Shown here: piece by piece, positions 14,947 through 33,945 of the stretch
Position numbering within the stretch: the stretch's first letter is position 1
How the letters are laid out: each line of letters starts with the position of its first letter
The notes under the pieces: generated by a model
The model's database searches: none
Seen by the model: only the letters and a program-made list of their open reading frames with translations
What the model was told of the DNA's origin: nothing
From: Maribacter sp.
GTDB taxonomy: Bacteria > Bacteroidota > Bacteroidia > Flavobacteriales > Flavobacteriaceae
Direction of reading: 5' to 3'
Length of the DNA: 64,000 bases
Assembly (NCBI GenBank): GCA_020629285.1
Contig: JAHDDP010000011.1
Coordinates: 19,542-83,541, forward strand
Made by a program: the position numbers and the translations under genes

Positions 14947-14961
14947 AAACTATTAGAAAGT

Positions 14962-14986: not shown

Positions 14987-14994
14987 GAAAATGT

Positions 14995-15993: not shown

Positions 15994-16012
15994 AAAATAG
16001 ACAAATCATATA

Positions 16013-17641: not shown

Positions 17642-18899
17642 AGATTTATTAGTGAAATTTAAAGATTTTGCTACAGTTAATCCTGGGCAATCACCTAAAT
17701 CTGAATTTTATTCTTTTAGTAAAGGTTTGCCTTTTTTACAGGGAAATAGAACATTTGGACTGCTATATCCGACAATTGATACTTATACAACCAAAGTTAC
17801 AAAAACGGCTGAAAAAGGCGAGATTTTAATGAGTGTGAGAGCACCAGTTGGTGATTTGAATTTTGCAAAAGAAAAAGTTTGTATTGGTCGAGGAGTTGCT
17901 AGTATTAATGCTAAAGACGGTAATAATCAGTTTTTGTTTTATTGCTTAAAATACAACATCCAAAATTTAATTCGACAAGGAGGAGGAACTACATATGATT
18001 CAGTAAATAAAGATGTTATTAATGATTTTGATTTGATAATGCCTCCAACTAAAATTGAAAGAAAAATAATAGCCAAAGTCCTTTCCGATTTAGACGCCAA
18101 AATAGAAGTCAATAATAAAATTAACCAAGAATTAGAAGCGATGGCAAAAACGCTTTACGATTATTGGTTTGTACAGTTCGATTTTCCCTTCGATTTCGCT
18201 CAGGGTAAACCAGATGCGAATGGTAGACCTTATAAATCGTCTGGTGGTAAAATGGTTTTTAATGAAGCCTTGAAACGTCAGATTCCTAAGGGTTGGGAAG
18301 ATGGAGTGCTTACAGATATAGCTAATATTACTATGGGACAATCACCTTCTGGTAGTTCATATAATGAAAATGGTGAAGGGACGGTGTTTTATCAAGGTTC
18401 TACAGATTTTGGTTCAAGATTTCCTACAGTTAGAAAATATACCACAGAGCCATCTCGAATGGCAGAAGAAAATGATATTTTACTTTCTGTAAGAGCACCT
18501 GTTGGTACTTTAAATCAAGCAATGGAAAACTGTTGTATTGGACGTGGTTTAGCTGCGTTAAGAGAAAAAGAAGGGTCGATTTCTTTTTTATGGAGTCAGA
18601 TGGAATATTTCAAACAAATTTTTGATAGAAGAAATTCTTCAGGAACAACATTTGGCTCAATCACAAAAAATGATTTATTCAATTTGAAACTTTGTATTCC
18701 TAATAAAGATGTCTTAGAACAATTCAAGAAAATCGCTGATCCTTTTCATGAAAGGATAGTTGTAAATTCAAAAGAAAACCAAAAACTCTCAGAACTTAGA
18801 GATTGGTTATTACCTATGTTAATGAATGGGCAGGTTACTGTTGGTGAGGCAGAGCAAGAGTTGGGTATGGTTGCGGAGGAAAGAGAATCTTATAAATGA
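17634..18899 (+). CDS. hsdS: Type I restriction specificity subunit S (HsdS)
   Basis: The 421-residue protein has two target-recognition domains (about 1-135 and 220-370), each followed by a conserved helical spacer ('KVLSDLDAKIEVNNKINQELEAMAKTLYDYWFVQFD' after the first). The two recognition domains look like each other: 'GQSP', 'F.QG...FG...PT...YTT', 'SVRAPVG.LN.A', 'CIGRG.A'. A bipartite target with related half-sites is therefore likely. Between 'FDFP' and 'DANGRPYKSSGG' there is an extra 'FDFAQGKP', an in-frame 24-nt insertion that resembles a dispersed Bacteroidota repeat. It overlaps hsdM by 8 bases and ends one base before the KAP gene. Confidence 0.92.
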   Translation: MNKDLLVKFKDFATVNPGQSPKSEFYSFSKGLPFLQGNRTFGLLYPTIDTYTTKVTKTAEKGEILMSVRAPVGDLNFAKEKVCIGRGVASINAKDGNNQFLFYCLKYNIQNLIRQGGGTTYDSVNKDVINDFDLIMPPTKIERKIIAKVLSDLDAKIEVNNKINQELEAMAKTLYDYWFVQFDFPFDFAQGKPDANGRPYKSSGGKMVFNEALKRQIPKGWEDGVLTDIANITMGQSPSGSSYNENGEGTVFYQGSTDFGSRFPTVRKYTTEPSRMAEENDILLSVRAPVGTLNQAMENCCIGRGLAALREKEGSISFLWSQMEYFKQIFDRRNSSGTTFGSITKNDLFNLKLCIPNKDVLEQFKKIADPFHERIVVNSKENQKLSELRDWLLPMLMNGQVTVGEAEQELGMVAEERESYK

Positions 18900-18900
18900 T

Positions 18901-21603
18901 ATGAAAAATTACGACACTAGATTCTATACAATACTATTCGCTTCAATTGCAATTTTGCTGGTTTTTAAAAATGTTATAATTGATGTACTTGTTGGGTTAG
19001 GTGATTATATAGATTTTACTACTCCTGCATTCTATATTGGTTATCTAGTAATAGGTTTCATCACAATAGCCATCTCACTAATTGCATTTAACAAAGAGTA
19101 TATACCTAATAAGAATAACACATTAATTATTTTAATTATAGTTGTTTTCTATCTCTATTTAAGGATATTCGAAACTAAAGATATTTATTTTGAATCTATC
19201 TTGGGTATTGTACTCTATGCTGACCTAATTATAATTTTGGCGGTATTGTTTGTTTGGAATTTATATCGAGTTAATAAAAAAGTACCAACAGTTAACTCAG
19301 AGGATTCTTTTTTCCTGGAAGACACGGTATTCGAAAATAGTGACTTGACTAATGAGAAAATTCTACAAAAACTTATCAATACTGTACATGATTTCAAACC
19401 AGAAGTTGCTTTTTCAATTGGAATCAACGCCATATGGGGATATGGTAAAAGCAGTTTTCTCAATAAATTTAAATCTGATTATTCAAAAAAGAATCCTGAA
19501 GCAGTTGTATTTTGGTATAGAGTCTGGAAGAATAAAGGTGTCAATTCAATAATTGAAAATTTCTTTGAGGAATTAAATAACTCTTTAAAACCATATTCGG
19601 GAGAATTAGATTCTGAATTTAAAGGATATGTTGATTCTATTCTTCATTTACCGTCCACTGAAGTAAGTAAATTAATTAATTTAGGTAGGGATGCTTTAAA
19701 TGGCATAGATACCCTTGAAAAATATTTTCAATCTATAAATCATGCAATTGCCAAAATTGATAGACAAATCATCGTTTTATTAGATGATATGGATAGATTG
19801 GAGCAAGAAGAGATTTTGCATACACTTAAATTGATACGTACACTTTCAGATTTTAATAATTTGATATTCATTGTAGGATATGACAGAAAATATCTTGTTG
19901 ATACAATTAAAAAGGAAAAGGAAAATTACTTAGATAAAGTTTTTAATGTCGAAATAAACTTATTGCCTTTTGATGAGAATCAGATTACTCAAATGCTTTT
20001 AAGTAAGGTAGATGAAATTTACCCAGAGAAAGAATTAAATGATTTAGATATAACGGGGTTTAATGATGGTTTTAAATCTTTGTTTAATAAAAGTGGTAAA
20101 TCCTATCCCGTAGACATTAATTTAGATTTATTCGTAGGTGAAGCTTGTACAGATTATGAATTAAAATTTGTTGATTTTCTAGATTCTTTCAGGGACATAA
20201 AACGATTTATTAATGAATTTAAATTTAATGCTAGCTTTCTAGAATCTGAAAATGATATAATTCATGTAGAGTATATTTTACTCAAACTTTTGACCTATAA
20301 ATATAGATTTGTGCAGGATTTAATCTTAAATAAGATGGTTTCTATATTTAGCCGTGGTAAGATTAATTGGGAATCAGGTGAAATTATAGAAGGTTTTAAA
20401 TTTAGTTATGATGTTTGGTTATATGATGATCAAGCAAAAAATCAAGTAAAAACAATTTTAAAAGAATCAAATTACGAACAGCATTTTAAAGTCATTAATG
20501 CTGCATTGTGTAGATTATTTGGGAAAAGTAGTTTGGCATTTTATAAAGAAAACCAAAATAGTATCTCCAAAGTATATCACACTGATTTATATATTAGAAA
20601 TGATATTGCTTCGGGTAATATAACTATATCTCAAATTCGTAAGGCTTTTGAACAAGCTGAATTGCATGTTCTAATTAAAGAAATAGGGGAAGACCCCTCC
20701 AAAAAAGAGTTTACAATTCAGAATGAGCTCAAATATTTTATTTTCAAAAATCAAGTTTCATCGAAAGGCCAGTTTGAAGATGTAGTGTTGTCCCTAAACA
20801 TGTTTATGTCATTTGGGGTTAATAATGATGACGATCAGGTATTGGAAATTTTACTTTATGGATTAGAGCATTTTTATTTAAAAAAGAGAAAGTTATTCAT
20901 TGAATTTATTAAGGAAGTACTTGTGAAATGCGATGTCGGATACTTAGATGAAATTTTATCGGATATTAATGTAAATATTAAAAGAGAGGAACATCGAGAA
21001 AAAAATCCAGCTAGTATTATAAATTATGAAAATAATTTTTTCACCCCTGAAGAGATAAAATATTTACAGTTTGCTAAGCTAAAGGCTTTTATTGATAAAG
21101 AATATGAGGTAGATGATGTTATTAGAGCATATCATTTTATGGTGGAGAAAATTATTGATAACAAAGTCTTGAGACCTTTTACAGCGAATGATATTATAAA
21201 GAAAGAAATAATAAATAAATTCGATTTGTATTATAATACTTATTTATTTATCATGATTTCAGATAGAGCTAATCATTCAGATGCCGAAGTAATGGGTTAT
21301 CAGCCAAATGATTTTTTGGTTCAGATTTTTGCTTCTAAAAAGGCTTACAAAAAGTTAATTGCTAATCTAAATCCGGCAGAAGCCTTTGCAGAATTCAAAA
21401 GAGACGGTGTTAAGAATCTGTTATCTTTTCTGAGGTCATTACAGTTTAATGAACCAAAAGAACAATTTAAAATAGAAAACACTATTAAAATCATTATGAA
21501 GTTTATAAGTAATGATTATAAACCATTGAATAGAAAAGAATATGATTCAATTTGGAATAATGATATAGCTGAAGATTCAGATTTACCGTTACTGAAAACT
21601 TAG
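18901..21603 (+). CDS. Membrane-anchored KAP-family P-loop NTPase
   Basis: The 900-residue protein begins with about four predicted transmembrane helices (residues 10-125: 'FYTILFASIAILLVF', 'FYIGYLVIGFITIAISLIA', 'TLIILIIVVFYLYL', 'LIIILAVLFVWNLY'). A KAP NTPase domain follows, with Walker A G180-YGKSS and Walker B 'VLLDDMDRL' (D295, D296), and 'FIVGYDRKYLVDTI' typical of KAP proteins. The C-terminal 450 residues are not recognised. The ATG at 18901 is one base after the hsdS stop; the longer frame from 18826 inside hsdS is less likely. KAP proteins occur in several anti-phage systems, so it may add a membrane-linked effector to the hsd operon. That role is inference. Confidence 0.8.
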   Translation: MKNYDTRFYTILFASIAILLVFKNVIIDVLVGLGDYIDFTTPAFYIGYLVIGFITIAISLIAFNKEYIPNKNNTLIILIIVVFYLYLRIFETKDIYFESILGIVLYADLIIILAVLFVWNLYRVNKKVPTVNSEDSFFLEDTVFENSDLTNEKILQKLINTVHDFKPEVAFSIGINAIWGYGKSSFLNKFKSDYSKKNPEAVVFWYRVWKNKGVNSIIENFFEELNNSLKPYSGELDSEFKGYVDSILHLPSTEVSKLINLGRDALNGIDTLEKYFQSINHAIAKIDRQIIVLLDDMDRLEQEEILHTLKLIRTLSDFNNLIFIVGYDRKYLVDTIKKEKENYLDKVFNVEINLLPFDENQITQMLLSKVDEIYPEKELNDLDITGFNDGFKSLFNKSGKSYPVDINLDLFVGEACTDYELKFVDFLDSFRDIKRFINEFKFNASFLESENDIIHVEYILLKLLTYKYRFVQDLILNKMVSIFSRGKINWESGEIIEGFKFSYDVWLYDDQAKNQVKTILKESNYEQHFKVINAALCRLFGKSSLAFYKENQNSISKVYHTDLYIRNDIASGNITISQIRKAFEQAELHVLIKEIGEDPSKKEFTIQNELKYFIFKNQVSSKGQFEDVVLSLNMFMSFGVNNDDDQVLEILLYGLEHFYLKKRKLFIEFIKEVLVKCDVGYLDEILSDINVNIKREEHREKNPASIINYENNFFTPEEIKYLQFAKLKAFIDKEYEVDDVIRAYHFMVEKIIDNKVLRPFTANDIIKKEIINKFDLYYNTYLFIMISDRANHSDAEVMGYQPNDFLVQIFASKKAYKKLIANLNPAEAFAEFKRDGVKNLLSFLRSLQFNEPKEQFKIENTIKIIMKFISNDYKPLNRKEYDSIWNNDIAEDSDLPLLKT

Positions 21604-21763
21604 ATTTAATATTAATAAAATTATATTAAAAATCTGGTAAGTAACCTTATTTAAATTGATTGAATAATTTGAATATGTAATTTAAAAGGAAAGATAAATT
21701 GGTTGGTTGTTTAAAGGGATATTCCACAAATTTATTATCAGTATGTTTTAATAGTTATAACAA

Positions 21764-23917
21764 ATGAGTGAATTCAAATTATTAGGGATACGTCCTTTAG
21801 ACGGGTGCAGTACTCAATTCAAAAAGAATTTAAATGCTGGGGAAATCTATAAATTTTACCAAAACTATACCTTTTTAGATGAGGCTGGTGTTGAAATTTT
21901 AAGTTTTAATAAAAACTTAAATTCTAAGGTGTTTAAAATTCAAAACTTAGAATTAGACCAAGAATTAGATTTATACTCTATAGATAGATTAAATATAAAC
22001 ATATCTGCGATTGTTGGTAAAAATGGTAGTGGAAAAAGTACAGTTTTAGATTTGTTCTACTTAACTGTTTATTTGATAGACTATAAAAATCTTTTAAAGC
22101 ATAAAAAGAAGATTGAAGATGAGAGTATCTCTTTCAACTCTCAATATTCTTTTAATGATATTATAGAAAAAAATTCTAATTTACTTGAAGGGCATAGTGA
22201 TAGAAACACTTATAATTTTTTTCAAGGATTAAAATATTTTATAGAGGAAAGAGTTCATTTAGAAGTTTTCTATAAATATAGATTAAAGATTTATAAACTC
22301 ATTCTAGATACAAAGAATAAAGAAGATATTGATTGGTGTAAATTAGAGAGATTAGAAGATGGATATTTTATACCGGATAATGGGGATTTATTGCCGTTTT
22401 ATAGCATATCCTTGAATTATTCAATTCATTCTTTGAATACTCTCGACACTGGACTATGGCTAGAAAGTATTTTTCATAAAAATGATGGATATCAAACTCC
22501 ATTGGTAATGAATCCAAAAAGAAATCAGGGTACTATAGATGTTGGTAATGAAAGAGACCTTCAAAAGTCCAGACTTTTAGTTAATAGTCTGGAGATTCTT
22601 AAAAATTCTGAGAGTAGGGATCCATTATTTAATGATAAAAGTGTAAAAAAAATTGTTTTTAAATATAAATTTAAAAATTTGCAAACCGTTATAAAGGGTA
22701 GGGAATCCTTAAATATGGATTTATCTTTAATTGATGGTCCATATAATAATATTAATAAAGAGTCAGAGTATCGAATAAAAATTATTCAAAAGATTTTTAG
22801 TTTAAAAAAATTTTCCGATTGCTCATGGATTGAAAAAGAAGCATATGGTTATATTATTTATAAAGTTGACCGAATACTTCAAAATTACCCAAGTATTTTT
22901 CACGATGATAACTACGAAACTAAATTAATAAGTATAAAAAATTATGATAGTCATATTACTTTTAAATTAAAACAAGCAATTAACTTTATTCGGTATAAAA
23001 ATTATTTAAAAACCAAATGTGAAGAAAAAAACCCAGACATTACCGAGAATTTGTATGGAAGGGGTTTGGATGCATTCTCATTTGAGAAAGATCCAAATAT
23101 TATAATAGAAATTGTAAATGTGAAAAATAGATTGATTACTGATATCTATTCGCATCAAACCAAAGAGACTATTAGTCAGATTGAGTTTCTGCCGCCGCCA
23201 ATATTTGATTATGACCTTCATTTTTCTAATGACCAGAATGATACTTTTGAAAAATTAAGCTCAGGTGAAAAACAGCAGATATACTCTATTCATACTATTA
23301 TTTATCATCTACGAAATTTATCTTCTATTAAAAATGGTTCAGTTTTAAAAAAATATTCAAAAATAAATATTTTACTAGATGAGATTGAATTGTATTTTCA
23401 CCCAGAGATGCAAAGAAATTTTGTAAATAGACTTTTAAAAGGAATCGGACAACTAAGTGCTAATTTAGAGAGAAATATAGATTCGATTAATATATTGATA
23501 GCGACTCATTCTCCTTTTGTGCTGTCAGATATACCATCAACTAACGTGTTAAGATTAACTAGAGGGCACAGTACAGAAGTATCAGAACACACATTTGGAG
23601 CAAACATTCATGACTTATTAGCTAACGATTTCTTTTTAGACAAAGGTTTTATGGGTGAATTTGCGAAAGAGAAAATTAACGAAACAATAGATTGGATAAA
23701 TAAACATATAGAGTTAAAAAGGAAACAAGTACTGATTAAAGATGATGTCTTCTATAAAAATTACAAACATTATAAAAAGGTTATAGAATTTATAGGAGAG
23801 CGTGTGTTAAGAGTTAAGCTAATTCAAATGTTATCTGAGTTACACGAAGGTAAAGTTGAGTTTAATGAAATGATTAAAAATGAAATAGAAAGATTAAATA
23901 AGTTAATTCAGGATTAA
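21764..23917 (+). CDS. Septu-like ATPase (PtuA-type AAA/ABC ATPase)
   Basis: The 717-residue protein has an ABC/SMC-like ATPase split over its length: Walker A G85-KNGSGKS-92, signature 'KLSSGEKQQ' (S500-G501-E502), Walker B 'ILLDEIELYFHPE' (D539, E540) and 'IATHSPFVLSD'. The long middle is helical and variable. It is followed with a 1-base overlap (TAATG) by an HNH nuclease gene. That ATPase-plus-HNH pair is the PtuA/PtuB arrangement of Septu anti-phage systems, where the ATPase holds and controls the nuclease. It lies 160 bases after the KAP gene with its own AT-rich leader. No reverse transcriptase is near, so it is not a Retron-type version. Confidence 0.78.
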   Translation: MSEFKLLGIRPLDGCSTQFKKNLNAGEIYKFYQNYTFLDEAGVEILSFNKNLNSKVFKIQNLELDQELDLYSIDRLNINISAIVGKNGSGKSTVLDLFYLTVYLIDYKNLLKHKKKIEDESISFNSQYSFNDIIEKNSNLLEGHSDRNTYNFFQGLKYFIEERVHLEVFYKYRLKIYKLILDTKNKEDIDWCKLERLEDGYFIPDNGDLLPFYSISLNYSIHSLNTLDTGLWLESIFHKNDGYQTPLVMNPKRNQGTIDVGNERDLQKSRLLVNSLEILKNSESRDPLFNDKSVKKIVFKYKFKNLQTVIKGRESLNMDLSLIDGPYNNINKESEYRIKIIQKIFSLKKFSDCSWIEKEAYGYIIYKVDRILQNYPSIFHDDNYETKLISIKNYDSHITFKLKQAINFIRYKNYLKTKCEEKNPDITENLYGRGLDAFSFEKDPNIIIEIVNVKNRLITDIYSHQTKETISQIEFLPPPIFDYDLHFSNDQNDTFEKLSSGEKQQIYSIHTIIYHLRNLSSIKNGSVLKKYSKINILLDEIELYFHPEMQRNFVNRLLKGIGQLSANLERNIDSINILIATHSPFVLSDIPSTNVLRLTRGHSTEVSEHTFGANIHDLLANDFFLDKGFMGEFAKEKINETIDWINKHIELKRKQVLIKDDVFYKNYKHYKKVIEFIGERVLRVKLIQMLSELHEGKVEFNEMIKNEIERLNKLIQD

Positions 23918-24894
23918 TGCAGTTTATAGATTCAGAACAGATACACATAAAAAATGCATTAGAGGAACATAAGAAAAAATTATCCCCTCTTTTAACTGGC
24001 AAAATTAATGAAAGTAAAAATCCTTTTTTACAGAAATTTATAAGAAAGAATTTACACGAAATATTAACTGGTGAACCATTGGTTCTAGTAAAAATTCAAA
24101 AAAAATTATTTGATCTTAAACCTGATTTTGAAACTTATTTAAAAGAAAAAAGAAAAACAAAACATTTTAATAATCGTATTAGAATAGTTTACTCAAAATA
24201 TTTCGAGGAAATATTAAGGATTATAGATTATAATGCTTTTACAACTAGAAATAGTAATTATGATGCATACAAATTAGCTCAAAATTTGAATATAAATACC
24301 TGTGTATATTGTAATAGATTATACACTAAAACTGTCATTAATAAGAATAATGATGGTGAAGTAATAAAATTAACTAGACCAACTTTTGATCATTGGTTTC
24401 CGCAAAGTAAAAATCCTCTATTAGGTCTTTCTTTTTATAATTTAATTCCCTCATGTACGGTTTGTAATAGTTCTTTAAAAAGTTCTATTGTTATGACATT
24501 GGATGAACATATACATCCTTATGTAGATAAGGATATAAATTTTCAATTTAGTTATAAGTTGAATGCAATTGGAAAATATGAGTTTGCTATAAAAAATGTT
24601 GGTGATGATAAAAATTCAAGATCTAAAAACACCGCTAATTTTTTTAAATTTAAAGAAATTTATGAAACACATTTAGATGAAATTGATGATTTAGTAAAAA
24701 TTAAGAATGCATATTCTTTAACTTATTTGACAAATTTGAAAGATTTTTTTAAGGGAACAAATCAACTGACAAATGAGCAAATTTATAGACTTGCATTTGG
24801 AACGGAAATTAGTGAGAAGAAATTTGAAAAAAGACCATTAAGTAGAATGAAACGTGATATTTTAATTGAATTGGGAATTATCATAAATAAATAA
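23917..24894 (+). CDS. Septu-like HNH endonuclease (PtuB-type)
   Basis: The 325-residue protein has a zinc-stabilised HNH core: C129-x2-C132 ('CVYCNR'), catalytic D158-H159 ('FDHWFPQSKNP'), 'GLSFYNLIPSC' with the asparagine, and C180-x2-C183 ('CTVCNSS'). This is the nuclease fold of PtuB and of related HNH proteins paired with AAA ATPases. The start overlaps the ATPase stop by one base (TAATG), so the two are translated together and probably form one complex. It should cut nucleic acid when phage infection relieves the ATPase. The exact target cannot be read from sequence. Confidence 0.78.
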   Translation: MQFIDSEQIHIKNALEEHKKKLSPLLTGKINESKNPFLQKFIRKNLHEILTGEPLVLVKIQKKLFDLKPDFETYLKEKRKTKHFNNRIRIVYSKYFEEILRIIDYNAFTTRNSNYDAYKLAQNLNINTCVYCNRLYTKTVINKNNDGEVIKLTRPTFDHWFPQSKNPLLGLSFYNLIPSCTVCNSSLKSSIVMTLDEHIHPYVDKDINFQFSYKLNAIGKYEFAIKNVGDDKNSRSKNTANFFKFKEIYETHLDEIDDLVKIKNAYSLTYLTNLKDFFKGTNQLTNEQIYRLAFGTEISEKKFEKRPLSRMKRDILIELGIIINK

Positions 24895-25083
24895 GATTAT
24901 AAAAGTATATCTCAAGTTATATATTATCTTCAAACTTACGAGCTTTTGTTACCAATTGATTTATAGTTCATTATATCCATAATAGTATTTTATTTTTGCA
25001 ATAGATTTTGTAATTTCATTTAGTGAAATAAAAGTATAATATTTTTTTTCACTTCTCCCCCTCGATATTTTATCTAAAAAACT

Positions 25084-25857
25084 ATGACTTCTAGAAGGGG
25101 GTATCTCATTATTATTTGTTTTATAATTCTGCTATCCTTCGTGGTTTATATTACAAATCATCAAAATGCTACGAAAGTTGTTTATGATTTTCCATGCGGT
25201 GTTCCTAAAACGCTTGTGAACCCAATGAGTAAGGATTCGACTACATCTCAATTCGTAATCGATAGAAGTAAAATGTGGACACAAAAAAAATTAGAAATTT
25301 ATTTTATGGATGATCATATAACCCAAGAAACAATTGATGATGTAGTTGAAATTGCCAATGAATGGTCAGAGTATTCAAATATAAAATTTGTATCAACTGA
25401 GGATATAGGTAAATCGGATATAAGAATTTCATTTAGTTCAAGAAAAGGATATGTGTCAGAAATTGGGAATGATGCAGAAAAAGAAATGGGAAAATCTACA
25501 ATGTCCTTGGGAGATTTGAATAATGAAAAAAATAATATAAAATTAAAATCCATCGTGCTGCATGAGTTTGGTCATGCTTTAGGGCTTCTTCATGAAATGA
25601 ATAATCCTAATAATCCTATAGTTTGGAAAATTCCTGAGACTTATATTTATTTTAAAGAAGAATATGGCTTAGAAAGTTTTGAAGTAGATGAACAGGTAAT
25701 TAATGATATAATAGATGTAAAATATTCAGTATTTGATTCTTTATCTATTATGACATATCCTATTCCAGCAAAACTTACTCATAACAATATATCTATCCCT
25801 ATGGTTTCAGAGCTTTCGGAAAAGGATAAAATAAACATTGGAATTAACTATAACTAA
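25084..25857 (+). CDS. Astacin-like zinc metalloprotease (metzincin), membrane-anchored or secreted
   Basis: The 257-residue protein starts with a hydrophobic signal/anchor ('GYLIIICFIILLSFVVYI') and has the extended metzincin zinc site H160-EFGHALGLLHE-171, followed by a Met-turn M223-T-Y225 ('SIMTYP'). The HE after the third histidine and the M-x-Y turn point to the astacin (M12A) branch. The active site is complete and there is no obvious long propeptide. It is 11 bases upstream of a putative outer-membrane protein gene and the two probably form an operon. A proteolytic surface or periplasmic function is likely; whether it is part of a defence system is unknown. Confidence 0.75.
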   Translation: MTSRRGYLIIICFIILLSFVVYITNHQNATKVVYDFPCGVPKTLVNPMSKDSTTSQFVIDRSKMWTQKKLEIYFMDDHITQETIDDVVEIANEWSEYSNIKFVSTEDIGKSDIRISFSSRKGYVSEIGNDAEKEMGKSTMSLGDLNNEKNNIKLKSIVLHEFGHALGLLHEMNNPNNPIVWKIPETYIYFKEEYGLESFEVDEQVINDIIDVKYSVFDSLSIMTYPIPAKLTHNNISIPMVSELSEKDKINIGINYN

Positions 25858-25868
25858 AGAACCAACTA

Positions 25869-27377
25869 ATGAAAACTACCACTTATCAAATTTTGTTTAC
25901 CCTGATACTGTTTTCTGCAATTTTGAGAGGACAGTCACAAAGCTGTCCAAAAGATTTAGAAATTAATTTTCATAATTTATACTTGTCAGAAACTGATAGT
26001 TTAGCCGAAGAAATAGGTAAAAATAATAATTGCCACTTAGTAAAAGATGAAGTTTATATTATTAAAATTAAAAATATAAATCAAAACATTTTTAAGGTAT
26101 CGGAATCTATTAAAGAAGAAAACCTATTTACAGAACAACCAGAAATATTTAGTGATTTTAGTTTACCATCTTATGTGAATTTTTCAATGCCAGAATCTCC
26201 AGATTCAATAGATGGACAAAATAATATCAAAAGTAAAGACAGTTTGGATATTACAATAGAATTATTCAAAAAAACTTTTTTACAAATCAAGTCACTCACT
26301 TCAATTTCAGAAATGCTTGATTATCATAAGAAGAACTGCGAAGACACCCTTTATACAATTTTAGATAAAATTAAAGTTGATTTTAATCAATTTAAGGTGC
26401 AAGCTGACTCTGCTAATACAATAGAAAATTATTTAACCGATTACGTCATTTCAAATATTATTATTTCAAAGGATAAAGCTAGTAGCTTTAATGAACACTT
26501 TAAAGAAGTGAAGAAAGAAATGGTTAAGGAAGCAGACGTTAATTTAGACACAATTAATGAACAATTGGAGTTGTTAACTAAGGATAAAAACCTAAATGAT
26601 CTAAATAAAAGAAAAATTAAAAATTTAAATGCTGAAAAATCAAAATGGGAAGAATATAAAAATGAAATTGATCATTATAAAACTGAAGTAGATGCATTTT
26701 TATCTGTTATAAATAATGAAGATTTATTCAAGAAAATATATGGTATTATGAATTCCAGAAAGACTTTTACAGACAGTAACTTTACTTATATTTTACCTTT
26801 TAAGGCAGTAAAAGACCTTACAACAATAGAATTAAAAATATCTACTGACGCGGAAATTACATGTAATGCTCCTAAGAATATTACTGTAAAAAGAGAATAT
26901 TGGACTAAAAAAGGATTGAAAATTGACTTTAGTACTGGAGTCATGATCAATGGCGGAAATGGTGATTTTATAGGGAACGAATATGAAAATCATATGGTTG
27001 ATGATTCTAATTCTATTATTCGTAAAAAGGATGCAGGTTCTAGAGCATTATTGTCATTAGGTGCATTTATGCATATTTATAGCCGAGGTACAGGTAATAT
27101 TAAGTTAGCTTTTTCTCCAGGTATTAGTACTAATGATGAATTCGATGGTTTAATATACCACTTAGGTGGTTCTTTAATTTTCGGTAAAAAAAATCGTTTA
27201 ATATTTACTAGTGGTCTCTCTATGAAATCTTCTAATATTTTAGACAAAAATTATTTACTAGGTGAAGAATACGAAACATCCTCATTGCCAGTAAATCCTT
27301 CAACATTAAAGGTTTTTCCTAAACTAGGTTATTTCTTTTCTTTATCCTATAATTTAACTAGTACAAAAAGTGAGTAA
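25869..27377 (+). CDS. Putative outer-membrane protein with central coiled coil (unknown family)
   Basis: A signal peptide ('TTYQILFTLILFSAILRG') is followed by a lysine/glutamate-rich helical middle (about residues 85-285, e.g. 'DTINEQLELLTKDKNLNDLN'). The last about 130 residues alternate polar and hydrophobic strands with glycines and aromatic ends ('LKIDFSTGVMINGG', 'GAFMHIY', 'KVFPKLGYFFSLSYNL'), like a small beta barrel. I do not recognise the family. It follows the astacin-like protease by 11 bases, so the two may work together at the outer membrane. It is the last plus-strand gene of the cargo. Confidence 0.6.
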   Translation: MKTTTYQILFTLILFSAILRGQSQSCPKDLEINFHNLYLSETDSLAEEIGKNNNCHLVKDEVYIIKIKNINQNIFKVSESIKEENLFTEQPEIFSDFSLPSYVNFSMPESPDSIDGQNNIKSKDSLDITIELFKKTFLQIKSLTSISEMLDYHKKNCEDTLYTILDKIKVDFNQFKVQADSANTIENYLTDYVISNIIISKDKASSFNEHFKEVKKEMVKEADVNLDTINEQLELLTKDKNLNDLNKRKIKNLNAEKSKWEEYKNEIDHYKTEVDAFLSVINNEDLFKKIYGIMNSRKTFTDSNFTYILPFKAVKDLTTIELKISTDAEITCNAPKNITVKREYWTKKGLKIDFSTGVMINGGNGDFIGNEYENHMVDDSNSIIRKKDAGSRALLSLGAFMHIYSRGTGNIKLAFSPGISTNDEFDGLIYHLGGSLIFGKKNRLIFTSGLSMKSSNILDKNYLLGEEYETSSLPVNPSTLKVFPKLGYFFSLSYNLTSTKSE

Positions 27378-27451
27378 TGATAAGGCTTGTTGGTTTTATT
27401 TTTTAATATGTAATTTCACCCCAAATCTTACCATAACTTAACTGCGCGAGG

Positions 27452-27512
27452 ATCCTGTCCGGTTTTTGTAGTGTTCCGGTAGATAAACGTAAAGCAAAAA
27501 CCGGATAGGGCG
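27452..27512. other. Candidate origin of transfer (oriT)
   Basis: An 11-bp perfect inverted repeat TCCGGTTTTTG (27458-27468) / CAAAAACCGGA (27495-27505) has a 26-nt spacer. Directly 5' of it is ATCCTG (27452-27457), the hexamer I recall at the IncP-type nick site, and 3' of it GGGCGCAC. It lies in the non-coding gap before the mobilization genes, where an oriT is expected. The short minus-strand frame 27403-27588 across it is not considered real. Confidence 0.5.
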
Positions 27513-27535
27513 CACCAACTTGGCTATGAGGAAAG

Positions 27536-27982
27536 TTATTTGGATTCTGCCCATTTTTTATATTGTTCCAGAGCCTTTGGGTTCTCACTTAAATAGAGAT
27601 TTATATACTCCGTCGCTGTCTTTTCACCTTTAATGTATGCTATCTTTTCTTTTTTAGTTGTTTCTATTTTAACTGTGTAAGCATAAAACGATATTAAACA
27701 ACATATTAGAATCATACTCATGAAACTAATGATTGCCCATTTAGGATAGAAACTAGCATTTTTAACTATTGATTGTAAACGGTCTAGGTAAGAGTCTTGA
27801 TGCTTTTTGCTTAAGTTTAATGATTGCTCATGAGCCTCTAACAAAGGTTTTAGTTCTTTTAAATTTAACTCTACCTTAGTGTCACTGATTTTGGTTTCTA
27901 AACTTTCTAACTTAGAAATACCTTTTTCAAATTCCTTTAACTCTGCCACTAATAGTGCAGCTAATTGTTCAATTTTTGTCAT
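27536..27982 (-). CDS. Small mobilization-associated membrane protein
   Basis: About 148 residues from the ATG at 27982; a TTG start at 28003 would overlap the relaxase. The N-terminal two thirds are charged and helical, probably coiled-coil ('LKEFEKGISKLESLETKI'), followed by one transmembrane helix ('WAIISFMSMILICCLISFYAY') and a short polar tail. Proteins of this shape (DUF6730-like) follow relaxase genes in Bacteroidota mobilizable elements; the family name is from memory. It may tether the transfer complex to the membrane. It is the last gene of the mob operon. Confidence 0.65.
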   Translation of the reverse strand: MTKIEQLAALLVAELKEFEKGISKLESLETKISDTKVELNLKELKPLLEAHEQSLNLSKKHQDSYLDRLQSIVKNASFYPKWAIISFMSMILICCLISFYAYTVKIETTKKEKIAYIKGEKTATEYINLYLSENPKALEQYKKWAESK

Positions 27983-27992
27983 GTGTTTAGTT

Positions 27993-28847
27993 TTAGTATC
28001 CAATTCCTTGGGTTATCGTTTTTTTAATAGTTGTTTTAGCTATACTTAATAACATATTGGTTGACATCTCTACAGTTTTTCCCATTAGGTTTAAGTTTTT
28101 ACTTTGTTTAATGAATTTTTCTACCCCAGTATTCTGAGCTATTTCTTTGCCAATATTTGATCCTGTCATTGTTCTATGTATTTCACTTCCTTTTAGATTT
28201 TGACCGTTATATTCGAACCTAAAACCTTGTAGCTTGTTAGCTTTATTAATTGAGGGAATTACTTTAACTCCATTTCTTGCCATAGCATCTATGTATTGTT
28301 CAAATGATTTTGGTTTAAATTGTTTTAATGTCAGATTATGTCTTCTTTGTACTTCTTGGCGTAATTCCTTAAGGTTAAACTCTTTTTCAAATTGTACTTG
28401 CCTTACAGTTTTTAATTGCATTTTCTCGGCAACCGCTTCAGCTGCTCTTTGACTACGAACACCTATAAGCCTATCATTGAAAGCCACTCCCTTAAAATCA
28501 ATACGATTAATATACAAATGGATGTGTGTAATTTTGTCACGATGAACAAACGCTATTGCTTGTCTTTCCTTAAGATGTAATTCGTTCATAAATTTTTTGC
28601 AAATGGTATTTAAGTCTTTGTTTTTTAACTTTCTTCCATCTTCAATAGTTGGACTGATTACAAATGAAAAAGTGTTGTTTTTACAATGGTAATTTTGAGC
28701 CTGAACCAATTCAAATTCTTTAGTAATTTCATTTGGGTTTTCTCCCACTAAATGTTGTTTAAAAACTATTTCTGCATTTTTCTCTTGGTCCCATCCATAA
28801 GCAATTGATGCGCTTGTGTGTGAGATTGCTTTTCCTTTACCTATCAT
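27993..28847 (-). CDS. mobA: Relaxase / mobilization nuclease MobA
   Basis: The 284-residue relaxase has the metal-binding motif H102-RDKITHIHLYINR (H102, H108, H110), characteristic of MOBP-type relaxases. The N-terminus 'MIGKGKAISHTSASIAYG' with Tyr17 holds the likely catalytic tyrosine. It nicks oriT, stays covalently bound to the 5' end and leads DNA transfer through a helper conjugation pore. The start overlaps the MobC gene by 4 bases and the downstream membrane gene begins 10 bases beyond. The relaxase is shorter than versions with a fused helicase or primase domain. Confidence 0.88.
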   Translation of the reverse strand: MIGKGKAISHTSASIAYGWDQEKNAEIVFKQHLVGENPNEITKEFELVQAQNYHCKNNTFSFVISPTIEDGRKLKNKDLNTICKKFMNELHLKERQAIAFVHRDKITHIHLYINRIDFKGVAFNDRLIGVRSQRAAEAVAEKMQLKTVRQVQFEKEFNLKELRQEVQRRHNLTLKQFKPKSFEQYIDAMARNGVKVIPSINKANKLQGFRFEYNGQNLKGSEIHRTMTGSNIGKEIAQNTGVEKFIKQSKNLNLMGKTVEMSTNMLLSIAKTTIKKTITQGIGY

Positions 28848-29452
28848 GGGTCAAACTTTTTTAATTGTTCTTTTATACCTTTAGCTACCTCTAATATTTC
28901 TTGTGTTAGCTTAGCGTCTTTCTTCTTAAATGAATTACTTATCATTTTAAAGTTGTTGTGATATTTTACAAGCATCTGGTAAATTTCAATTTCCGTATCA
29001 GTTAGTCTCTCCACTATTTTTTGTTCAAAAGCTACACGTCTGAAATATTCACTTAAGGTTAAACCTGTTGTTTTAGCTTTAATTATGAGCAGTTTTTTCT
29101 CATAGGTTGTACATCTAAATTTTATGATTTCGTCCTTTATGTTTACTTGTTTTTTTGAACTGCGACCATCGGGAGTAGTCAAGATTGTGTCCACAGACAC
29201 CCATCTTGAGTTACTTCCCGCCGATTCATTCTGTTTTCCAAAGTCTGGTTCTATCTTTAAAGTCAAACTATCCTGTTCCAATAGCAAATCATGTGAAAGA
29301 TGGATGGTATGCATTTCTTTGTTTCTCGTATCTCCTTCTCTTTGTAACTTTCGTTCTAACTTCTTTGTCCGTTCGAGTTTACGTTCCAGCTTTAAATTGC
29401 GTTCTCTTTTTGGACCTCTATTTCTTGGGTCAAATCCTCTTCCTAATTCCAT
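28844..29452 (-). CDS. mobC: MobC-like relaxosome accessory protein
   Basis: The 202-residue protein has a strongly basic N-terminus rich in R/K/E ('NLKLERKLERTKKLERKL') and a C-terminal half typical of MobC/ribbon-helix-helix accessory proteins ('FRCTTYEKKLLIIKAKTTGLTLSEYFRRVAF', 'YHNNFKMISNSFKKKD'). It should bind and melt oriT for MobA. The gene overlaps mobA by 4 bases and the upstream primase-like gene by 10 bases, so all three are translationally coupled. Confidence 0.78.
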   Translation of the reverse strand: MELGRGFDPRNRGPKRERNLKLERKLERTKKLERKLQREGDTRNKEMHTIHLSHDLLLEQDSLTLKIEPDFGKQNESAGSNSRWVSVDTILTTPDGRSSKKQVNIKDEIIKFRCTTYEKKLLIIKAKTTGLTLSEYFRRVAFEQKIVERLTDTEIEIYQMLVKYHNNFKMISNSFKKKDAKLTQEILEVAKGIKEQLKKFDP

Positions 29453-30297
29453 GCTATTATTTTTTCGTTTAAATCTTTGTAGCCTTTATACTCATGTCTA
29501 CAATCAACTGTAGTATTAAATTGATGCTTTAAAATTTCAGTTGTTGAATTACCGGCATTATCATTATCCAAATACAATCTTACTTTATCATAATTAGAAA
29601 GTAAGGGTTCGATATCAGAGAGAAATGCTATGGAGTTTAGAATCAAAATATCTGATTCACTAACTAAAGTTGGATTAATAGTTGCAATTGAAAGAAAATC
29701 AAACATGCCTTCAGTTAGAATGAGTCGTTTTTTATCTCTTTTAAACCACGAATAAGATTTGGGCGAGCTAGATGTTTTCTGAAACTTGTTACGAAGCTCC
29801 CAGCCTCCTAAATGATTTTCAAGTCCTAAAGCAAATAGCGATTTGTTGCTTTGTTCAAATGTTACTTCTTTTAGATATTGTCTGCTTATTTCTATAGAGA
29901 CTTTTCTATTTTTCAAATAGGTTAAAAGAGCAGGGTGACTAATAGTTTTAGTTGTTAGGATTTGGGTTTTTTTCGTTTCTTTTATTTTGAGCGGCGGCTG
30001 ATGAAAAGAAAAAGCTAAGTCGTTGCTTAAATATGTTAAAACTTCTTTTACCGAAAAGTTTAAAAGCAGTGATAAAAAATCAATGCTATTTCCTCCTTTT
30101 CCCATTCCATGGTCGTACCATCGATTGAGCGCCAGAGATATCTTAAAAGAGGCTTGGGTTTCTGACCTGAAAGGACTTAGAAACCAAGCTTCTTTTTCCG
30201 TTTTTCTTGTGGGGAAGTGACCTAAATTTTCTAGTATTTTCACTAGACAAAAATTTCGGGCGCTTCTGCACGTTATTCTTTTTTCTTTCATCTGCAT
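29443..30297 (-). CDS. Primase-like toprim protein of mobile elements
   Basis: The 284-residue protein has an N-terminal region equivalent to the CHC2 domain of DnaG ('WFLSPFRSETQASFKI', 'WYDHGMGKGGNSIDFL') but without the zinc cysteines, and a C-terminal toprim domain ('LILTEGMFDFLSI' for the glutamate, 'VRLYLDNDNAGN' for the D-x-D). Proteins of this type accompany Bacteroidota mobilization genes and probably prime replication of the single strand after transfer. Two in-frame ATGs lie at 30297 and 30291. It overlaps mobC by 10 bases. Confidence 0.75.
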   Translation of the reverse strand: MQMKEKRITCRSARNFCLVKILENLGHFPTRKTEKEAWFLSPFRSETQASFKISLALNRWYDHGMGKGGNSIDFLSLLLNFSVKEVLTYLSNDLAFSFHQPPLKIKETKKTQILTTKTISHPALLTYLKNRKVSIEISRQYLKEVTFEQSNKSLFALGLENHLGGWELRNKFQKTSSSPKSYSWFKRDKKRLILTEGMFDFLSIATINPTLVSESDILILNSIAFLSDIEPLLSNYDKVRLYLDNDNAGNSTTEILKHQFNTTVDCRHEYKGYKDLNEKIIAWN

Positions 30298-30390
30298 TTT
30301 TTTTAAGTTTCTTTAACTTGTATTATAAATTATAGGTTTACTTATTGTATGTGCTTTCGTTCGCTTATTTTAAAGGAGTTAGGGGATTTA

Positions 30391-30505
30391 AATCACACCT
30401 TTCGACTAAGATTTATTTTTGTAATCACACCTTATGACTAAAGTAAATCACACTTTTCTACTAAACATTCAATGATATCACACTTAGATTATGATAGGTG
30501 TGATT
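30391..30505. repeat. Iteron-like repeats (candidate replication origin, oriV)
   Basis: Three 19-bp direct copies of AATCACACYTTWYKACTAA lie at 30391-30409, 30423-30441 and 30446-30464. A weaker copy TATCACACTT starts at 30476 and an inverted AGGTGTGATT at 30496-30505 reaches into the 3' end of rep. Arrays like this next to a Rep initiator gene usually bind Rep. This suggests the excised circle can replicate. Confidence 0.65.
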
Positions 30506-31469
30506 TTGTTTTTACAGGACGTTTTTTGACATTATATTCAGGTAGGATGACGTAGTCTAGTAAGTTGCGTATATCTTTCTTGGTTTTAACTCCGGATGTA
30601 TATTCTTTATCCAAGTTTTTAAAACGCTGAAAGGCAAAATTTAGACTACCATTGTTTGAGATTTCTTCAATATACCTTAGTGCCTTATCATCTAAATAAT
30701 TGGGGTAAAAAACACATAAAAATCTATAGGTATAATTATATTTCGACTCATCAACACCTAAGAAAGTATGCTCTTGATTTAGGGTGTTCTTATGTATTTT
30801 GAAATTGATATCCGTAAACTTTCTGCTATTCTTTTTAATAAGCTGATAAGTGAAATAGTAATCTCCCTTTAGCTTTAACTCCTTTAGTGCGGTATTTAAA
30901 ACTTTGTTTCTAAGATGGGCTAATTGTAAATATTTATTTTCTATTAATAGGTAAGATCTTAAATCTTCTATTGTACAAGTATACCCACCTCTATCTTTCC
31001 ATCTACAACATAATTCATACATGTGTTTTGAAAAAATGGAGTTCAAGCTTATAGCAATACATTTTTGAAAAGCTGTGAACCCACCACCTATGTAGCAGAA
31101 AAATATACAGGCAGAAGAGGGAATTTTAAAAGCAATTTCTCCTGAATATGGTATATAGTCATAGCCACTTGTCAGAACGGTTAAGGTTTTTTTTATCTTA
31201 TTCGTTCCTGGTATATTAATTTCAAATTCAACGTGTTTTGAACCTAATGATTTAACTGCATTTTTGACTCTAGAGTAATTGTTGTTTTTTTCTATTGTCT
31301 TAATTAGAATCTTGACCTCTTGTTCAGTAAATTCATTAGTAGTTTTCATAGTCATTCGTAATTGCAGCTTATCTACAATTATATAAATGATGTTTTTTTC
31401 TAATGCTGAAAGATTAAAACGTGCAGTTGAAATATGATTAGGTTGAATTATAAATCCATCCTTTTTCAT
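30489..31469 (-). CDS. Replication initiator protein (Rep_3/RepB-type)
   Basis: The 326-residue protein resembles plasmid-type Rep initiators with two winged-helix domains: an N-terminal 'LSALEKNIIYIIVDKLQ' and central 'CIAISLNSIFSKHMYELCCRWKDRGGYTCTIEDLRSYL' where the conserved 'Y.L...W' initiator pattern appears. It should bind the iteron-like repeats lying directly after its stop codon and start theta replication of a circular form. It is transcribed with the HTH gene 2 bases upstream. No truncation is seen. Confidence 0.75.
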   Translation of the reverse strand: MKKDGFIIQPNHISTARFNLSALEKNIIYIIVDKLQLRMTMKTTNEFTEQEVKILIKTIEKNNNYSRVKNAVKSLGSKHVEFEINIPGTNKIKKTLTVLTSGYDYIPYSGEIAFKIPSSACIFFCYIGGGFTAFQKCIAISLNSIFSKHMYELCCRWKDRGGYTCTIEDLRSYLLIENKYLQLAHLRNKVLNTALKELKLKGDYYFTYQLIKKNSRKFTDINFKIHKNTLNQEHTFLGVDESKYNYTYRFLCVFYPNYLDDKALRYIEEISNNGSLNFAFQRFKNLDKEYTSGVKTKKDIRNLLDYVILPEYNVKKRPVKTKSHLS

Positions 31470-31471
31470 AT

Positions 31472-31756
31472 CTATCTTTTATGTTTTAAAACATAGCTAT
31501 TTGCTTCCTTTTCTAAATCTAAACTTGATTTACTTCTATTAGATAAAAGCCATGTATCTAGTTTATCTTTAGAAAAGAAAATAGATTTTCCGTTGGGTTT
31601 AGAATGTTCTATGAGGTTCGAAGAAGTTAGCTTATACATATAACTCTTTTTGTAGCCAGAGTAATCGCATGCTTCTTCAAAAGTTAAAACCTTTTTAGTT
31701 CCTAGTAGTAATTTTTCAATTCTACTTAATCTTTCGTTTAAAATAATAATATCCAT
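31472..31756 (-). CDS. Excisionase-like helix-turn-helix protein
   Basis: The 94-residue protein has a MerR/excisionase-type HTH ('VLTFEEACDYSGYKKSYMYKLTSSNLIEHSKPNGKSIFFSKDKLDTWL'), the standard small DNA-binding protein of Bacteroidota integrative elements. It may act as recombination directionality factor or as regulator of rep, which follows 2 bases downstream. A near-perfect palindrome (31783-31798) lies just upstream and is a candidate site for autoregulation. Confidence 0.75.
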   Translation of the reverse strand: MDIIILNERLSRIEKLLLGTKKVLTFEEACDYSGYKKSYMYKLTSSNLIEHSKPNGKSIFFSKDKLDTWLLSNRSKSSLDLEKEANSYVLKHKR

Positions 31757-31782
31757 TGCTTTTTTAATAAGGATTAAAGAAT

Positions 31783-31798
31783 GGACAAGCGCTTGCCT
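31783..31798. promoter_or_regulatory. Palindrome upstream of the excisionase-like gene
   Basis: GGACAAGCGCTTGCC contains the perfect 10-bp palindrome CAAGCGCTTG (31786-31795) with further matching outer bases. It lies 30 bases before the start codon at 31756, a promoter position. Confidence 0.4.
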
Positions 31799-31907
31799 TT
31801 GTTTATGAATTCGAAATAAAGGTATGGGAAAGTCAATGGTGCCAGTATTTTGGCATGTGTAAACAATGAAAAACTATACTAAGCAATAGATTTTAGATGC
31901 TATTTTT

Positions 31908-32642
31908 TTAATTTTTAGGTATGTTAACCAAATCATTGCTGTAAAGATTATTTTTGGTGATTAGTTTAAATTTATGATCAGAATAATTGCCTTTCAATTT
32001 TGTTCCTCGAATAGCAATTTTTTCGGATTTATATACCTCTTTTAATTGTTCTTCAGTAAAATAGTTTAAATCATATAACTGAAATAAAATTCTTCCTGTT
32101 ACTATGGGAGAACTATAAGTGGCATGAATTGAATACTTTTTTATTTTATAAAAATTTAGCTCTAATAAATTTTTTAAATCAGTATCAAGATTATCAGATC
32201 TAAAATAATTGTGTTTTTTTATGAATTCAATCATTTTTTGAATTTTCTCTTTTTCTTGATTATTTTCAGATGAAACATTTAACTCTATTGTAGGTTTATC
32301 TAAGTTTTTATGATTATTTAGATTTTCAGTTCCAACTATTTTAGTTGTAATCCATATACCCTCTGTTTTAATAACCTTAATGTTATTTTCAAAGGCATAA
32401 ATAGCAGCGCTCACAAAAAGTAAATTTAAAAATAGTATTATACAGTAAATTGTAAGAAGTAAGTTGCTAGTATTATTTGATAGCATAGCAGTTAGTCCAA
32501 GTATTAGGATTATAGCCATTAATAAGTAAATAATATGCAATTGATATTGAGTGATTTTAATTTTTGTGTTTTTAATCAATGTATTAATATAATCGCTTAT
32601 CCTTAATGCTGATGTTAGTGTAAAGTCAAATATTTTTTTCAT
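31908..32642 (-). CDS. Two-helix membrane protein coupled to the integrase gene
   Basis: The 244-residue protein has two adjacent transmembrane helices around residues 38-90 ('LHIIYLLMAIILILGLTAML', 'LLLTIYCIILFLNLLFVSAAIYAF') and a soluble C-terminal part with helical and beta character. I do not recognise it. Its start overlaps the integrase stop by 4 bases, so it is translated with the integrase. That linkage is unusual and its role in the element's life cycle is unknown. Confidence 0.6.
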   Translation of the reverse strand: MKKIFDFTLTSALRISDYINTLIKNTKIKITQYQLHIIYLLMAIILILGLTAMLSNNTSNLLLTIYCIILFLNLLFVSAAIYAFENNIKVIKTEGIWITTKIVGTENLNNHKNLDKPTIELNVSSENNQEKEKIQKMIEFIKKHNYFRSDNLDTDLKNLLELNFYKIKKYSIHATYSSPIVTGRILFQLYDLNYFTEEQLKEVYKSEKIAIRGTKLKGNYSDHKFKLITKNNLYSNDLVNIPKN

Positions 32643-33772
32643 AGTTGTAACGTTAAATCAGGTATTAAGTTGGCAGCTTCTTTCATTTTAGAATCAACAA
32701 TTTTGGCATAAATCTCTGTAGTTCGTAGTTCTTTGTGACCTAGTCTTTTTGAGACAGTGTATATATCAGCTCCATTTTCTAAAAGTAATACCGCATTAGT
32801 ATGTCTTCCACTATGGAAGGTAATATGTTTCGTTATTCCGGCATTCATGCACCAACGCAGAATTTGGGCATTAAAATGAGCTCCATACTTCAAACCAACA
32901 AATACTCTTCCGCTTTCATCAGATCTTTTGCCCATTAATTCTCTAGCCTGTGGAGATATGTATAGATATTCTAAACCATCAGTTTTTAATTGTCTGAAAA
33001 TAATTCTTGTGCCTTGGTTCTCATCTCTTACTTCACTCCATGTCATTTTATTAATGTCACTCCATCTTAATCCGGTTAGACAGCTAAATATAAAGGCATT
33101 CTTAAGTACTGGATATTTGCATTTAGCTTTCGCCAAAGCCTGTAATTCGGAATGTGTTAAATATTCTCGTGTTGATTCTGCTTGATCAAATCCTTTTACG
33201 TTATTAATGAAATTCTTTTCTAAATATCCATCATTGAATGCTTGTCGAATTGAAGCTCTAAATTTATTGAAATAGGTATACTTGGAATTTTGTGCTAGGG
33301 GAGTACCGCTTTTTGTTGTGGCATCTTGGGATAAATATTTCTTAAAATCTTTAATGAATTGTTCATTAATATCACCTAAAGTATAATTAGGAGGACAGAA
33401 GCGTTCTATATGTTTTAATCCAGCATCCCAATTATCATAATTCCCCTTACTTTCATATCTCTCTTCTTTTAATTGATTGTAATATTCAAGGAAGAGAAGT
33501 TTGTTTTTTTGATTGTTTCGAAGATTATGCTTTCCTTGAATATAGTCGGCTTGTCTTATGCTAAGTATATTATTTGCTAGTTCAAGTACTTCTTTATTTT
33601 CTTTTTTTTGTTTTGAACCATTTGGATTATCAATTAAATAAAGTTTGAGATACTCAAAATCTCTATTATGAATTTTCTTTCCATTGGAATCAATTGATGA
33701 CCCTTTATAATATTCTATATAAAGACTTGACTTACCACTTTTAAGTTTTTTTTGTTTTAGAGTTATCTTCAT
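32639..33772 (-). CDS. Tyrosine recombinase / integrase of the element
   Basis: The 377-residue protein has an N-terminal Arm-DNA-binding domain, a SAM-like core-binding domain (about 90-190) and a catalytic domain with R236 ('TGLRWSDI'), K263, H320-SGRH-324, H346 ('LGHKELRTT') and nucleophile Y355 ('EIYAKI'). All catalytic residues are present. It is the usual phage-integrase type of Bacteroidota integrative elements. The gene starts 49 bases inside the right direct repeat, with an imperfect copy of the repeat (33778-33790) between, where arm sites are expected. Confidence 0.92.
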   Translation of the reverse strand: MKITLKQKKLKSGKSSLYIEYYKGSSIDSNGKKIHNRDFEYLKLYLIDNPNGSKQKKENKEVLELANNILSIRQADYIQGKHNLRNNQKNKLLFLEYYNQLKEERYESKGNYDNWDAGLKHIERFCPPNYTLGDINEQFIKDFKKYLSQDATTKSGTPLAQNSKYTYFNKFRASIRQAFNDGYLEKNFINNVKGFDQAESTREYLTHSELQALAKAKCKYPVLKNAFIFSCLTGLRWSDINKMTWSEVRDENQGTRIIFRQLKTDGLEYLYISPQARELMGKRSDESGRVFVGLKYGAHFNAQILRWCMNAGITKHITFHSGRHTNAVLLLENGADIYTVSKRLGHKELRTTEIYAKIVDSKMKEAANLIPDLTLQL

Positions 33773-33777
33773 ATAGA

Positions 33778-33795
33778 GGTGTATTTTGGTACACC
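33778..33795. repeat. Repeat related to the attachment site, upstream of the integrase
   Basis: GGTGTATTTTGGTACACC has GGTGTA and its complement TACACC around TTTTGG, and resembles the GGTGTACTTTTGGTGTAC of the left end. It may be an integrase arm site or an operator for the integrase promoter. Confidence 0.4.
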
Positions 33796-33820
33796 TTCTA
33801 TTTGATAAATATTTTGGAGA

Positions 33821-33835
33821 TGTACTTTTGGTGTA
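33821..33835 (+). repeat. Right attachment-site direct repeat (attR candidate)
   Basis: TGTACTTTTGGTGTA, identical to 7510-7524. The next gene rightwards is mnmE, whose stop codon lies 110 bases further, so this marks the return to backbone. Confidence 0.65.
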
Positions 33836-33945
33836 ATAAAAGTATGAATAACATCAATATAAAGATAATAAAATCCAAAATAAATTTATGTAAGTTACTG
33901 AAAGTCAATTAATAGAAAGTAATATACTACTAAAGGAAAACATGT

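Follow-up and report, generated by a model that had tools for sequence, protein, structure and literature searches.

An astacin metallopeptidase paired with a probable outer-membrane protein in an integrative element, and a Bacteroidota partner family with changing protease neighbors

Protease-activated partners recur in bacterial immunity. Published cases include nucleases, for which pairing with trypsin-like or caspase proteases recurs in Hachiman, AVAST, and canu (PMC12799240), and the bacterial gasdermins, whose genes lie by those of caspase-like and other proteases (PMC9612521). In the myroilysin-type cysteine switch, a propeptide cysteine ligates the zinc (PMC9848320). In the literature searched, mostly without subscription journals, no pairing of a protease with a family of outer-membrane barrels was recognized. 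Here we describe an astacin gene and the gene of a probable outer-membrane partner, encoded on the plus strand with a gap of 11 bp in the window, that is, the whole stretch of 64,000 nucleotides analyzed. The features of the window and the neighbors of the partner family are collected in Table 1.

Both flanks of the integrative element that carries the pair adjoin each other, as an empty site, in nine of the 19 relatives' loci examined. The octamer CCGATACA, which occurs four times in the window against 0.62 expected, is found at both element ends (7458-7465 and 33953-33960). A repeat at 7507 and 33818 was ruled out as the att site, since the empty sites put the ends at 7458 and 33952. The cargo starts with the type I restriction-modification (RM) and RhuM/Fic genes, followed by a KAP ATPase, the PDC-M62 AAA/HNH genes, and the astacin pair, which is the last cargo ahead of a Rep3 gene (Pfam) and of two genes named from sequence, one relaxase-like and one integrase-like. 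The initial annotation had placed the two genes 11 bases apart at the end of the cargo of a defense element; the reading frame coordinates and the restriction and other defense-type genes within the 26.5 kb bear this out. The KAP-family ATPase (18826-21603; Pfam, PADLOC) shows PADLOC similarity to PifA and QatA. At 8862-10662, two genes overlap; by eye, one resembles a winged-helix regulator and the other a nucleotidyltransferase, and they may form an AbiE-like pair. The regulator-like gene, which comes first, had no PADLOC match.

A related integrase adjoins mnmE in three relatives (L112, L120, and L127). In two relatives (L143 and L144), an integrase 66% identical at the DNA level lies by mnmE, and the cargo is metal-efflux-like by eye. 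The relaxase-like protein has matches in 24 of 100 genomes, often in several copies, compared with five of 198 genomes for the partner and six of 198 for the astacin, the window's own genome being included in each count. Such a distribution is what one expects of cargo.

Table 1. Features of the window and of the partner-family loci
Feature	Position or locus	Strand	Basis or detail
Integrative element carrying the astacin pair, about 26.5 kb, 3' end of mnmE	7458..33952		Empty sites, boundary sequences, octamer
Type I restriction-modification genes, RhuM/Fic protein between R and M	11878..18899	+	Pfam, PADLOC
AAA ATPase and HNH-like pair, PADLOC candidate PDC-M62A/B, distantly Septu-like	21764..24894	+	PADLOC E 2.8e-45, 8.8e-57
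Astacin (M12A) metallopeptidase, 257 aa	25084..25857	+	Pfam PF01400, myroilysin fold, hydropathy
Cys38 codon, cysteine-switch-like (FPCGVP)	25195..25197	+	Astacin alignment
Zinc-binding motif HEFGHALGLLHE, residues 160-171	25561..25596	+	Read from sequence
Met-turn SIMTY, residues 221-225	25744..25758	+	Read from sequence
Partner protein (502 aa) with, from the N-terminus, a signal-like helix, a small domain, the linker, the helical region, and the strand-rich region	25869..27377	+	AlphaFold2 model
Linker, residues 89-124; candidate contact or cleavage segment (putative role)	26133..26240	+	pLDDT < 50 at 90-125, segment identities
Helical (coiled-coil-like) region, residues 125-300	26241..26768	+	AlphaFold2 model, helices 125-297
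Strand-rich C-terminal region, residues 336-498, probable outer-membrane barrel	26874..27362	+	Model, VIA-align, hydropathy
Tyrosine-integrase-like gene of the element	32639..33772	-	Named from sequence; related sequence by mnmE in three relatives
Pair in Algibacter	L007/L091		Astacin-partner gap 11 bp
Pair in Flavobacterium frigidimaris	L076/L092		Astacin-partner gap 11 bp
Pair in a MAG that carries the label Algicola (placement of this name uncertain here)	L093		Astacin-partner gap 18 bp
Astacin upstream of partner	Window, L091, L092, L093
Astacin downstream of partner	L063, L077
M12B (reprolysin-like) neighbor	L009
M43 neighbor	L010
Matrixin-like neighbor	L061, L062
Another zinc peptidase neighbor	L095, L096
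Subtilisin neighbor	L097, L100
Trypsin-ankyrin and caspase neighbors	L066, L071
Caspase neighbor	L067, L068
DyP-type peroxidase upstream of partner-family gene, no protease	L082, L099, L098, L102		L082 and L099 scanned; L098 and L102 by similarity

The first gene of the pair is an astacin of family M12A by Pfam (E 2.9e-11, 43.8 bits against a cut-off of 22.5), by its zinc site and Met-turn with tyrosine, and by its metzincin fold; Matrixin, the second Pfam match, is likewise over its cut-off. Residues H160, E161, H164, G167, H170, and E171, as well as M223 and Y225, are invariant in both astacin alignments (A7 and A9). The best solved relatives are all myroilysin (Foldseek with the model, E 4.1e-17, 30% identity; phmmer, E 5.5e-21), and crayfish astacin matches the model at Foldseek E 1.6e-5. 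The complete M12A-type site read in the initial annotation is thus confirmed.

Since residues 6-24 of the astacin are hydrophobic (mean hydropathy 2.65) and preceded by two arginines, and no lipobox is seen by eye, the N-terminus is probably an inner-membrane anchor, and the catalytic domain should face the periplasm. Cys38 is invariant in ten of ten aligned astacins (four cellular and six viral) and lies in a part of the model with pLDDT below 50; its context, FPCGVP, presumably resembles a cysteine-switch motif. We infer that the enzyme may be kept latent through this residue in a cysteine-switch-like manner. In alignment A9, the cysteine of the myroilysin-like L017 falls in a different column, and no such cysteine is present in L063 or L077. 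The pair may have a promoter of its own, as 189 bp separate the astacin gene from the upstream AAA/HNH pair; promoter-like sites were found at chance level only. An inverted repeat, ATTTCA-TTTAG-TGAAAT, at 25013-25029 ends 54 bases 5' of the astacin start and is a possible operator.

PADLOC gave no family at E ≤ 0.01 for the astacin or for the partner, in keeping with the initial remark that neither belongs to a known system. The partner also had no Pfam match over cut-off and no NCBIfam match at E ≤ 0.01. It is a member of a Bacteroidota family unnamed by any model scanned here, the models having been tried on few family members (five for Pfam, seven for NCBIfam, and one for PADLOC). The AlphaFold2 model, built from 12 sequences (mean pLDDT 69, pTM 0.44), has a signal-like helix at residues 2-20, small N-terminal strands up to residue 84, and ten strands at 337-496, nine of them with at least five residues.

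By VIA-align, residues 349-498 of the partner fall on OmpW, OprF-N, PagL, Ail, and NspA at Z 5.4-6.0, that is, under Z 8, where a match may reflect merely a common arrangement. The helices fall on membrane-fusion-protein hairpins and other long helices at Z 7-9, values that are common for helices and are counted weak by VIA-align. The top Foldseek rows included barrels, and the best row was FadL (E 0.048). Hydropathy alternation along the nine strands exceeds that of shuffles (p 0.0028). Because of the ten strands, the weak Z-scores to eight-stranded barrels, and this alternation, the C-terminal region is probably an outer-membrane barrel weakly resembling the eight-stranded ones, but it is not proven to be one; a Foldseek search of the PDB found nothing at E ≤ 0.001. 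A putative barrel protein with a central coiled coil had been proposed initially, and with medium evidence from the model, the Z-scores, and the alternation, the second gene still looks like that of an outer-membrane protein. Gasdermin and other pore-former folds are absent from the rows listed for the 502-residue model, except for tripartite-toxin helices, and their absence there proves nothing. The barrel is the most conserved segment between the window partner and those of L091-L093 (48-49% identity), and the linker contains a motif, IFxx[IF][KS][LI]Px[YF][LV]N[LF], common to four astacin-paired members.

The astacin and the partner were found in the same order in three further contigs, with gaps in the four contigs of 11, 11, 11, and 18 bp and about 30-50% identity among the partners. 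Two of the three further genomes are in the window's family, hence Flavobacteriaceae. In an order-wide profile search of 326 genomes, a window-type astacin and a window-clade partner occurred in the same two genomes, the window's own and that of F. frigidimaris, and are adjacent in both; the two genomes are rows of the query profiles, which inflates their E-values. The next matches were far below (astacin E 1.1e-46, partner E 4.7e-25), and the seven genomes whose astacins rank next (E 1.1e-46 to 2.8e-21) gave no partner match. Further astacins from this search sit in G826, G714, G669, G888, G964, and G899. The co-occurrence in Algibacter, F. frigidimaris, and the Algicola-labelled MAG indicates that the two genes are a genuine pair; the refuting outcome named in the initial annotation, that they never occur together elsewhere, did not arise. 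The partner of L094 belongs to the window's clade, yet no astacin adjoins it.

Single-protein scans of genome contigs with the partner (89 stretches) and of viral contigs with the astacin (seven stretches) gave no relative. A tblastn search of plasmids with the partner gave no match, and neither did profile A2 in viral contigs. Viral contigs did yield seven astacin loci. The astacin reading frame was recovered at six of these, and by eye none of the two frames on either side is partner-like; at the seventh, L106, the frame examined was not the astacin. Four viral-contig astacins (L103:7965, L105:7908, L107:7875, and L109:7935) have a cysteine in the first eight residues and no export signal by eye, and a cysteine switch is possible in these phage-borne enzymes. 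Another astacin (L020:9104-10156) lies inside a contractile-injection-like locus with tail-sheath-like and tube-like proteins and an AAA ATPase, all named by eye.

A five-member partner profile matched 24 of 397 family genomes and 17 of 395 phylum genomes, the two sets overlapping and weak matches (G346, G085, G362, G048, G271; G647) being counted. Forty members were placed in a tree, in which the L007 locus is that of L091 and the L076 locus that of L092; L072 and L075 are fragments and lie outside it, and for L073 and L089 the partner reading frame was not obtained. A protease is found within two genes of 18 of the 40 members, and its kind varies. Pfam was run on 11 of the 18 protease loci, with ten over cut-off and L095 below, while a motif or similarity served to assign the proteases of L092, L093, L062, L077, L096, L100, and L068. 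Another 18 members have no recognized partner, among them L085, for which a trypsin-like neighbor suggested by eye was dropped because Pfam gave no family. In four genomes of the window's family a member adjoins caspases, and in two of these also a trypsin-ankyrin protein. The partner gene lies downstream of the protease in eight of the 18 cases, upstream in eight, and between two proteases in two.

With the window left out and the distant set kept with its redundancy, the zinc-protease motif occurs in seven of 41 non-redundant close neighbors and in none of 204 distant reading frames of the same loci (p 2.3e-6). In a Pfam control of 105 distant reading frames, PrsW-protease (2) and S33 Hydrolase_4 (2) are among the families listed (25 of 169), a listing in which proteases with a single hit would not show. 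The partner tree, made by a quick method and having ten long branches, requires a minimum of 13 changes of partner type and of six changes of protease versus none, L085 being scored as none. One starred clade of six brings together M43, M12A, M12B, and matrixin-like neighbors; since these four families are kindred, swapping among them may partly be divergence inside one metzincin line, whereas subtilisin, trypsin, and caspase are not kindred. Five paired proteases (L010, L061, L063, L077, and L097) have no hydrophobic N-terminus, so a meeting in the periplasm is not general.

The reprolysin-like gene at L009:10558-12056 is split into two overlapping reading frames, and this copy may be broken; beside it, at L009:13249-17030, are OLD-nuclease-like and helicase-like genes that by eye recall Gabija. 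For a small membrane protein apparently common to several loci, homology is not claimed (BLASTP of L077 versus L094, E 0.023). PADLOC, applied to ten chosen proteins near members, identified a type III methyltransferase (L007), a type IIG enzyme (L093 and L088), Drt3b and Drt3a (L008), and TmtA (L096). Of the other proteins scanned, two of L008 and one of L094 matched nothing, and one of L007 gave weak Cas4-like matches only. These loci, chosen ones taken without a control, hint that partner-family members lie in defense islands. At L008:2316-10857, a partner-family gene, two small membrane proteins, and the Drt3a/Drt3b reverse transcriptases run in one direction.

We tentatively propose, with somewhat less than even confidence, that a latent periplasmic astacin acts on or through its outer-membrane partner, the two forming one envelope module. 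The astacin would be anchored in the inner membrane, its catalytic domain would face the periplasm, and its N-terminal segment would keep it latent through Cys38. The partner, whose C-terminal barrel would fix it in the outer membrane, would project its helical region and small N-terminal domain into the periplasm and dock the protease there, as its substrate or gate. An envelope disturbance, for instance phage entry or lysis from within, might free the astacin, which would then cut the partner in the flexible linker and lead to an altered outer-membrane state. Such an outcome could be protective, and the function could be anti-phage. Partner relatives elsewhere may follow the same scheme with other proteases.

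The segment identities bear on the proposed meeting of linker and astacin. In residues 89-114 of the linker, the window partner is 46, 31, and 38% identical to L091, L092, and L093, versus 23, 30, and 32% for L094, the member without an adjoining astacin; the difference concerns 26 columns and is absent against L092 (31% versus 30%). In the helical segment the order is reversed, with 35, 33, and 25% for L094 and 18, 15, and 18% for the window partner. The N-terminal segment and the pre-barrel segment also favor L094, the barrel shows no difference, and the picture is mixed for the signal peptide and residues 115-124. The linker pattern fits a contact between linker and astacin within the limit of these 26 columns.

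The main rival to the latent-protease reading is that the partner is a dedicated inhibitor that protects the producer from the adjacent protease, each protease family having its own version. Potempins offer a precedent, since they precede the KLIKK proteases and their inhibition is described as specific for the co-expressed protease (PMC7296668), and changing proteases with conserved adjacency would fit. We nevertheless consider an inhibitor rather unlikely, as the partner has about 500 residues and a probable barrel and is not a small lipoprotein, its place relative to the protease varies, and its most conserved part is the barrel rather than a protease-touching segment.

It is also possible, though unlikely, that the astacin acts against phages or competitors by cutting receptors, proteins of incoming phages, or proteins of rivals, and that the partner merely localizes it. 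The restriction and other defense-type genes of the element agree with this, as do the type III, type IIG RM, Drt3a/b, and TmtA genes near some partner relatives, but that nearness comes from chosen loci without a control, and the anchor predicts a periplasmic, not a surface, catalytic domain. The surface removal of phage receptors suggested in the initial annotation is thus possible and not favored, also because the neighbors of the partner family include six or more other types of protease, and some of these lack a hydrophobic N-terminus. Quite improbable is that the pair has no role in conflict and hitch-hikes as cargo that serves nutrition or the upkeep of the envelope: myroilysin is a secreted elastase and many family members lack a recognized partner, but the window-type astacin is anchored and accompanied by the partner in all four contigs found, while the seven genomes with the next-best astacins show no partner match.

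The partner-family neighborhoods suggest an unrecognized family of protease-linked envelope systems. In a broader and speculative form, which we regard as unlikely, these would be an outer-membrane counterpart of the gasdermin systems: one Bacteroidota barrel family would serve as a common envelope gate or executioner, into which different proteases have repeatedly been plugged as the trigger (astacin, reprolysin-like, M43, matrixin-like, subtilisin, and trypsin-caspase sets), in mobile defense elements among other places. If true, unrelated proteases tied to a probable outer-membrane protein would extend the logic of protease-activated immunity to the Gram-negative outer envelope. The partner family offers ready natural pairs for testing cutting and specificity.

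Compared with known systems, the window astacin shares with myroilysin (Myroides, M12A) the catalytic fold, the HExxHxxGxxHE motif, the Met-turn, and a cysteine N-terminal to the catalytic domain; it differs in its membrane anchor and adjacent partner gene, myroilysin being secreted. The strand region of the partner aligns with eight-stranded barrels of the OmpW/OprF/Ail type, a weak match, and the partner differs from them in its extra N-terminal domain and helical region, no sequence relation being found. The potempin-KLIKK systems of Tannerella, a Bacteroidota species, likewise have a partner gene by each protease, whereas potempins are small lipoprotein inhibitors encoded directly upstream and not barrels (PMC7296668). 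In the protease-activated nuclease pairs the partner is a nuclease, while here it is a probable outer-membrane protein. Gasdermins are produced in the cytosol and target the inner membrane, in contrast to the probable outer-membrane location of the partner described here. What they have in common with it is that the gene of a membrane-acting protein adjoins that of a protease (PMC9612521).
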